Assembly: GCA_002687795.1 (NCBI GenBank) | Contig: NZBG01000032.1 | Coordinates: forward strand, 1-40,706 | Direction: 5' to 3' | Source: Candidatus Woesearchaeota archaeon | GTDB lineage: Archaea; Nanobdellota; Nanobdellia; Woesearchaeales; GCA-2687795 | DNA: 40,706 nucleotides | Notes under the pieces: generated by a model | What the model was told of the DNA's origin: nothing | The model's database searches: none | What the model saw: the letters and a program-made list of their open reading frames with translations, nothing else | In this document: piece by piece, positions 5,616 through 35,052 of the stretch | Layout: every line of letters starts with the position of its first letter | Numbering within the stretch: position 1 is the first letter of the stretch | Position numbers and translations under genes: made by a program

Positions 5616-5693
5616 AAGCTATTCTAATCTTCTATAAGTTTAAAAAATTATCTTAAATATATGAAATATTAGAATTAAATGCGAGAGCCGGGA

Positions 5694-5724
5694 CTTTCAA
5701 ACCTGAGGATGTTCCTCAATAATA
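5694..5724 (-). other. tRNA-Gly intron 2 (T-loop, position 59/60)
   Basis: The 31-nt insert lies in the T loop. TTCA pairs with TGAA directly inside the T stem; a 3-nt bulge AGT lies on the 3' side and AAT on the 5' side. The inner stem TGAGG/CCTCA is capped by AACAT. Removal restores a 7-nt T loop. The inner helix is separated from the bulge, so this is a relaxed BHB. Confidence 0.8.
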
Positions 5725-5745
5725 TTTGAACCCGGGTCTCAACGT

Positions 5746-5788
5746 GTTTGCATAGCAAACATTCCGAAAACCTATGGTTTTCCGCTAT
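5746..5788 (-). other. tRNA-Gly intron 1 (position 37/38)
   Basis: The 43-nt intron has a BHB: outer anticodon stem CGACG/CGTTG, 4-bp helix TTGC/GCAA, 3-nt bulges CAA and ACA, and an inner TAGC/GCTA stem. It also contains two perfect mini-hairpins (GTTTGC/GCAAAC, and GAAAACC/GGTTTTC on 3-nt loops). Confidence 0.85.
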
Positions 5789-5891
5789 TGGCAACGTCGA
5801 ATACTAGGCCACTATACTACTCTCGCATAAGGCTATAGAATTCTGTTTTGTTAATAAAGATTTCGGATAAATCCAGATTTTCCTATGCCTA

Positions 5892-26031: not shown

Positions 26032-26628
26032 ATGGCTAAGAAAAAGCAGAAAAAGAAAGAAGCCCAGGAAAAAGATACTGATAAGGCTAAAGAAGAGAAA
26101 AAGCCGGATATAAAAGCATCTCTTTCAAAAGAAAGGGTGTTAACAGAGGCTTCTGATGAGGCCAGAGAGCTTTATAACCAGAGCAGGTATGGCACTGTTG
26201 TGGAAGATGGCAAGGTGCAATTATCGCTTTTAGAGGCTTTATACTTAATGGAAAAGGGCAGGCTTAAGGTGCTTGATGGCAGAAACAAGGAAATAAGTTC
26301 TGAGAAGTTCTTAAAGAACGCACAGAAGCTGGAACCTAATTTCTGGGTTAGGTATAGCGTGTTTAAGGATATAAGAAACAGGGGCTATATAATCAAGACT
26401 GCATTAAAGTTTGGCGCTGATTTCAGGGTTTATGATAGGGGTGTTAAGCCAGGTGAGGACCATGCAAAATGGGTTGTTTATCCTGTGCACGAAAGCTCAA
26501 CTGTCACATGGTATGAGTTTGCTGCTAAGAACAGGGTTGCTCATTCAACTAAGAAGAGGCTGTTGATAGGGATTGTTGATGAGGAGGCTGACGTAACATA
26601 TTATGAGATAAGGTGGTTAAGGCCTTGA
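26032..26628 (+). CDS. endA: tRNA-splicing endonuclease
   Basis: The 198-aa protein cuts bulge-helix-bulge introns from tRNA and rRNA precursors. After a lysine/glutamate-rich extension of about 28 aa come the N-terminal domain (EARELYNQSRYGTVVEDGKVQLSLLEALYLMEKGRL) and the catalytic domain. The triad is Tyr134 (FRVYDRG), His144 (EDHAKW) and Lys175 (HSTKKRL), spaced as in Methanocaldococcus EndA. The size indicates the single-subunit homotetramer type. A TATA-like TTTTATAAGC lies upstream. The HD gene starts 1 nt after its stop. This window also holds a tRNA with two introns that this enzyme would have to process. Confidence 0.96.
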   Translation: MAKKKQKKKEAQEKDTDKAKEEKKPDIKASLSKERVLTEASDEARELYNQSRYGTVVEDGKVQLSLLEALYLMEKGRLKVLDGRNKEISSEKFLKNAQKLEPNFWVRYSVFKDIRNRGYIIKTALKFGADFRVYDRGVKPGEDHAKWVVYPVHESSTVTWYEFAAKNRVAHSTKKRLLIGIVDEEADVTYYEIRWLRP

Positions 26629-34979: not shown

Positions 34980-35052
34980 AGCGAAGGGGGAGACTCGAAC
35001 TCCCGAAAAGTCGCTCTGCAGGCGACCGCCGTAGCCGCTGGGCCACCTTCGC
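34980..35052 (-). tRNA. tRNA-Cys(GCA)
   Basis: The 73-nt molecule has acceptor GCGAAGG/CCTTCGC, D arm GCC..GGC, anticodon stem GTCGC/GCGAC with loop CTGCAGA (anticodon GCA), and T arm GGGAG-TTCGAGT-CTCCC. Discriminator U73 fits cysteine. No intron and no encoded CCA. A T-rich run follows, and a TATA-like ATTTATTAAA lies about 25-35 nt upstream. Confidence 0.95.

Follow-up and report, generated by a model that had tools for sequence, protein, structure and literature searches.

There is roughly an even chance that the tRNA introns of the archaeal order Woesearchaeales have expanded on a scale comparable to that in the Thermoproteales, with a mobile family of T-loop introns among them, and that they are spliced by an α4-type tRNA-splicing endonuclease (EndA) lacking the CSL and ASL loops. 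Comparison across genomes indicates that T-loop introns, at position 59/60 of the tRNA, are a clade-wide and recurrent feature of the order. The narrower proposal, that these T-loop introns are removed by a lone, single-gene α4-like EndA without either loop, stands slightly better than even.

The tRNA-Gly(GCC) gene through which these introns can be described lies on the minus strand at 5680..5826 of the window, a stretch of 40,706 nucleotides. The precursor, which runs from G1 to A73, consists of exon 1 (positions 1–37, 5789..5826), a 43-nt intron after A37 at 37/38 (5746..5788), exon 2 (positions 38–59, 5725..5745), a 31-nt intron in the T loop between A59 and T60 (5694..5724) and exon 3 (positions 60–73, 5680..5693), all on the minus strand. 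Removal of both introns leaves a mature tRNA of 73 nt with the anticodon GCC and A73, in which 21 of 21 stem pairs of the cloverleaf are unbroken. The original prediction had described this complete cloverleaf at the same coordinates, and its two introns were placed identically by a custom-written, intron-tolerant tRNA profile scan run over the whole genome (925,456 bases). The gene scored 61.8, and the maximum in a dinucleotide-shuffled genome was 33.0. In the anticodon arm the scan may put junctions in the wrong place, and for this reason mainly its 59/60 calls are relied upon here; one T-loop intron, the ninth, escaped it and was recovered by the signature search described below. Neither ARAGORN nor the Rfam tRNA model reports the gene at 5680–5826, and Rfam searches at a permissive E-value gave chance sRNA-like matches only. 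A group I intron is an unlikely reading, both inserts being much too small for that class and Rfam giving no match. An intron-less tRNA-Cys(GCA) at 34980–35052 is the sole tRNA in the window reported by standard tools.

Invisibility to the standard tRNA finders would also be expected if the locus were a pseudogene in decay or an error of assembly, a reading that we regard as extremely improbable. The intact stems already speak against it, as does comparison with an ortholog from the same genus (genome G001, L025:453-581), which was found to be an intact tRNA. The ortholog has near-identical exons and an identical 20-nt upstream block, ATCCGAAATCTTTATTAACA, with little other conservation upstream. 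In the window this BRE/TATA-like block occupies 5849..5868 on the minus strand and is the probable promoter. The introns of the ortholog, in contrast, differ: a D-loop intron, which forms a near-perfect bulge-helix-bulge (BHB), and a T-loop intron are present, and the 37/38 intron is absent. Intron turnover within the genus is therefore rapid. Since the exons and the promoter block have been kept while the introns changed, it is very unlikely that the Gly-GCC gene is a pseudogene. A regular expression for BRE/TATA elements matched 2 of 28 tRNAs, compared with a random rate of 0.0046, and is too narrow to capture all tRNA promoters. Elsewhere in the home genome, a sequence resembling Glu-TTC, in which four pairs are broken (G000:C21:8334-8408, plus strand), is possibly a decayed tRNA copy.

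The cell also appears to need this tRNA. GGC and GGT account for 244 of the 482 Gly codons in the larger ORFs of the window, so tRNA-Gly(GCC) would be required, and the whole-genome scan found no other gene for these codons. A second, intact and intron-less Gly-GCC gene, which would have weakened the original prediction, was sought and not found in this metagenome-assembled genome (MAG); the assembly is 76% complete, and such a copy may lie in the missing part. The same type of intron recurs, moreover, in 159 independent assemblies. On the grounds of orthology, promoter conservation and order-wide covariation, both the pseudogene and the misassembly readings were rejected, and the locus is very probably a functional tRNA-Gly(GCC) gene that EndA would splice at both sites.

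Predicted folding of the precursor gives a different picture for each of the two introns. The predicted fold is 4.4 SD better than that of shuffled sequences. BHB-type pairings had been proposed at each intron, and both are present. At 59/60, the UGAA of intron 2 (5696-5699) pairs with the exon UUCA at positions 54–57 (5727-5730), and the T stem and this central helix form almost completely in the predicted ensemble, with a probability of 0.89–0.99 for the helix. Here the predicted helix reaches 7 bp with a 4-nt bulge; the 3′ bulge AGU is present, and the two 3-nt bulges of a strict BHB are not both formed. At 37/38, the GCAA at the 3′ end of intron 1 (5748-5751) can pair with the exon UUGC (5791-5794), all on the minus strand, and this central helix, owing to competition from a GUUUGC/GCAAAC hairpin, reaches a probability of only about 0.2. 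The structure containing both BHBs lies 2.3 kcal/mol above the minimum free energy, and the 37/38 BHB is absent from the predicted minimum-energy fold. Intron 1 is similar in sequence to the 37/38 introns of tRNA-Gly(GCC) in two other families (G034 and G053; L022 and L023, around 1501-1588), and the likeness extends to the TTTGC/GCAAA hairpin that competes at the 3′ end.

The Gly-GCC gene is far from alone. By the scan and the signature search together, at least nine tRNA genes of the home genome are interrupted at 59/60. These are Gly-GCC, Gly-TCC, Ile-GAT, Met-CAT, a tRNA with the anticodon TAT that has three introns in all, two Phe-GAA genes with three introns each, Ala-CGC on contig C18, which is the one that the scan missed, and, on contig C4, a tRNA whose variable region is long, which scores below the shuffled maximum in the scan and contains the exact signature. 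The signature, GKTTCAAA-N9-39-TGARAGTYYC, was found in 159 of 353 genomes of the order (45%), representing 124 of 220 genera, and the same pattern reversed, which served as the control, was found in 8 genomes. In other orders of the class, 13 of 113 genomes contained the signature, and the control occurred in 6. Nearly all of the signature loci that were sampled are complete tRNAs, and they cover many isotypes. A collection of 2.9 million viral contigs yielded 11 signature matches and no tRNAs, and hence no sign that viruses carry T-loop introns. For this lineage, these counts overturn the earlier expectation that such introns would be unusual in a DPANN-like genome. The resemblance to the introns of Thermoproteales that had been pointed out is upheld, as the introns are both multiple and located in the T loop (PMC4033280; PMC8450103).

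A BHB at the T-loop introns requires a pair between exon position 57 and intron position −6, numbered from the 3′ cut. The search behind the covariation count placed no constraint on this intron base. Where position 57 is A, 94 of 105 tRNAs have T at −6; where it is G, −6 is C in 51 of 69 and T in 9 of 69. The sites span dozens of genera and several isotypes, and a 2 × 2 test of the A-U/G-C covariation gives p = 4e-28, a value that is nominal because related sequences are not independent. The covariation provides strong comparative evidence for the bulge-helix-bulge helix and suggests that the pairing is under selection. In the commonest register, the inner intron helix begins after a single intron base on the 5′ side and a single unpaired base on the 3′ side. 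At least three pairs form in this 3x1 register in 44% of 147 introns, compared with 5.7% in shuffles, and the canonical BHB register is found in 17% of the same introns. A strictly canonical BHB was therefore rejected for the T-loop intron. Since the 3x1 register is the commonest, the usual 59/60 motif is a relaxed BHB composed of the T stem, an AG^U bulge, the UUCR/YGAA helix and a 3x1 loop AA^N/N.

The same data bear on the possibility that the 59/60 insert is retained and that the tRNA functions with an extended T arm. The extension is indeed predicted to fold as a stable stem that stacks on the T stem. Retention, however, would destroy the conserved T loop, which in tRNAs docks on the D loop. 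In addition, the bases at the junctions obey the rule for BHB cuts (AA^N and AG^U), removal restores UUCRAAU exactly across many tRNAs, and the single site holds inserts that are very unlike one another in length and sequence. Retention is thus very improbable.

The sequences of the introns provide some indication of how they spread. In the home genome, the T-loop introns of Gly-GCC, Met, the TAT tRNA and one of the Phe genes show mutual similarity above that of shuffles (z of 2.0–5.1) and form a family of the general form TATCCC-GAGGGAGAC-CAAATCCCTC-GGATTTGARAG. A covariance model of this family matched 65 of 338 genomes of the order, with up to 8 copies each; the weaker of these matches may come from unrelated T-loop introns, alike only in the ends paired with the exon. 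The matches are located in Phe, Ala, Met, Arg, Pro, Gly, His and other tRNAs. Examples of genomes with the most matches are G192 (8), G169 (7), and G168 and G232 (5 each) (alignment A2). In the multi-copy family the interior, GGGAGACnnCAAATCCC, is conserved beyond what the BHB alone needs. The two tRNA-Phe(GAA) paralogs of the home genome, each with three introns (G000:C37:11571-11755, plus strand, and G000:C3:3335-3533, minus strand), are nearly identical, including the introns in the D loop and the anticodon region, and their T-loop introns are unrelated. Together, the similar T-loop introns in different tRNAs and the unrelated ones in these paralogs suggest transposition, and the simplest reading is that T-loop introns have been transposed or replaced among tRNA genes.

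The enzyme expected to process these introns is encoded in the window itself. The endA gene (26032..26628, plus strand) encodes a tRNA-splicing endonuclease of 198 aa and is the sole PF01974 gene found in the genome. Its product shares 62–82% identity with proteins from Woesearchaeota and Nanoarchaeota MAGs, which assigns the window to a woesearchaeon and, by extension, to the presumed order Woesearchaeales. It is a single two-domain subunit, in keeping with the α4 type, whose subunits measure about 180 aa and bear the catalytic Tyr, His and Lys; the residues aligned with this triad are invariant in 45 homologs. An AlphaFold model of the monomer (pLDDT 77.8) best matches the EndA of Methanocaldococcus jannaschii (TM 0.93 on the target, rmsd 1.6). 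The N-terminal tail of about 25 residues is lysine-rich, predicted with low confidence and variable among homologs. Compared with the enzymes of S. tokodaii and ARMAN-2, the window EndA contains no insertion corresponding to the CSL of crenarchaeal enzymes or the ASL of ARMAN-2, the loops to which cleavage of relaxed motifs has been credited, and none is found in the 45 Woesearchaeal homologs. The two residues inserted in ARMAN-2 at the site compared correspond by position to Y160 and K161, which have a joint role in RNA binding and cleavage (PMC12397907), and our reading of the alignment is that this is the CSL/ASL site. The CSL and ASL insertions bear a lysine that contacts RNA; in the window EndA, the short loop at the site holds K61, which might conceivably take the place of that lysine. 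Overall, the Woesearchaeal EndA is predicted to be α4-like and may assemble into a homotetramer. Kaneta et al. reportedly compared EndA loops with introns in 2018.

An α4-like enzyme is not what current descriptions would assign to these substrates. Efficient processing of relaxed BHBs has been ascribed only to the (αβ)2 and ε2 types of EndA, and α4 enzymes are described as requiring a strict BHB (PMC6379350; PMC4033280). Given that the T-loop motif in most cases departs from a strict BHB, the introns might instead be spliced by a heteromeric (αβ)2 enzyme whose β subunit is too divergent for searches to detect, as in Nanoarchaeum equitans, in which case the rule linking enzyme type to intron type would be unbroken. 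We consider this rather unlikely. In its favor, the closest EndA sequence with a solved structure is the N. equitans α subunit, which is the partner of a β subunit, and Nst1, a nanoarchaeon of the same phylum, likewise has no recognizable β gene (PMC3655853). The survey of gene content argues otherwise. Among 120 genomes of the order (the home genome plus others at least 90% complete) searched with PF01974 at a permissive E-value of 0.1, 116 contained the gene, and in nearly all of these there was exactly one strong match. No gene for a second, structural (β) subunit was found in the home genome or in nearly all of the 116 relatives by PF01974, a profile that distant β subunits might escape. 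The extra strong matches, in G035 and G349, which have two full-scoring EndA genes each, score like the α gene and represent duplicates or contamination. Furthermore, the best structural fit is to the self-assembling M. jannaschii enzyme. Either the Woesearchaeal EndA breaks the rule, then, or a β subunit is hidden, with rule-breaking somewhat ahead.

For splicing by EndA, a pathway may be proposed. The Gly-GCC gene would be transcribed from the conserved promoter, and EndA would presumably cut the precursor at 37/38 and 59/60. At 59/60, exon bases 54–57 would pair with the YGAA near the 3′ end of the intron, placing the cuts in the loops AA^N and AG^U. RtcB, the ligase encoded on contig C24 of the home genome, would then join the exons and possibly circularize the introns, and after ligation the T loop UUCAAAU could form. 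Related introns may in part have spread by transposition among tRNA genes.

Multiple and T-loop tRNA introns have been described from the Crenarchaeota, N. equitans, Korarchaeum, ARMAN and a few others (PMC4033280; PMC8450103; PMC6379350). As in the Thermoproteales and other Crenarchaeota, a Woesearchaeal tRNA may contain several BHB introns, up to three, with the D and T loops included, and similar introns occur across different tRNAs, which in those organisms has been read as transposition (PMC4033280; PMC8450103). In contrast, the host is a member of the DPANN, its one α4-like EndA gene lacks the Crenarchaea-specific loop, and the commonest 59/60 motif contains a 3x1 loop on the 5′ side. 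Within the DPANN, noncanonical introns have precedents in ARMAN and N. equitans (PMC4033280). Those of ARMAN-1/2 (Micrarchaeota, ε2 EndA) likewise occur at various tRNA positions (PMC4033280), whereas in the ARMAN EndA three units are fused and the ASL is present (PMC12397907), and the enzyme here is one unit of about 198 aa without it. N. equitans, also DPANN and the source of the nearest EndA sequence in the PDB, differs in that its tRNAs are partly split and its (αβ)2 EndA includes a β subunit (PMC4033280), while no β gene was detected here. The α4 EndA of M. jannaschii has the same two-domain layout and no insertion at the CSL/ASL site, yet it is classed as narrow, acting on canonical BHBs only (PMC6379350), and the Woesearchaeal EndA appears to face many relaxed substrates.

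No report of multiple or T-loop tRNA introns in Woesearchaeota was found in the open-access literature searched. Taken singly, the Gly gene belongs to a known class and is ordinary within it; what appears new is the order-wide pattern of T-loop introns combined with what looks like a plain EndA. A practical consequence follows from the failure of ARAGORN and Rfam to detect such tRNAs, because Woesearchaeal genomes may for this reason appear to lack essential tRNAs; the signature and the covariation permit their annotation. If an α4-type EndA does splice relaxed BHBs, the rule limiting such introns to (αβ)2 and ε2 enzymes would be false, and that rule is now directly testable with one recombinant protein. 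The literature ties the distribution of noncanonical tRNA introns to the type of EndA, and a large, mostly uncultured DPANN order with a plain enzyme seems to be an exception.
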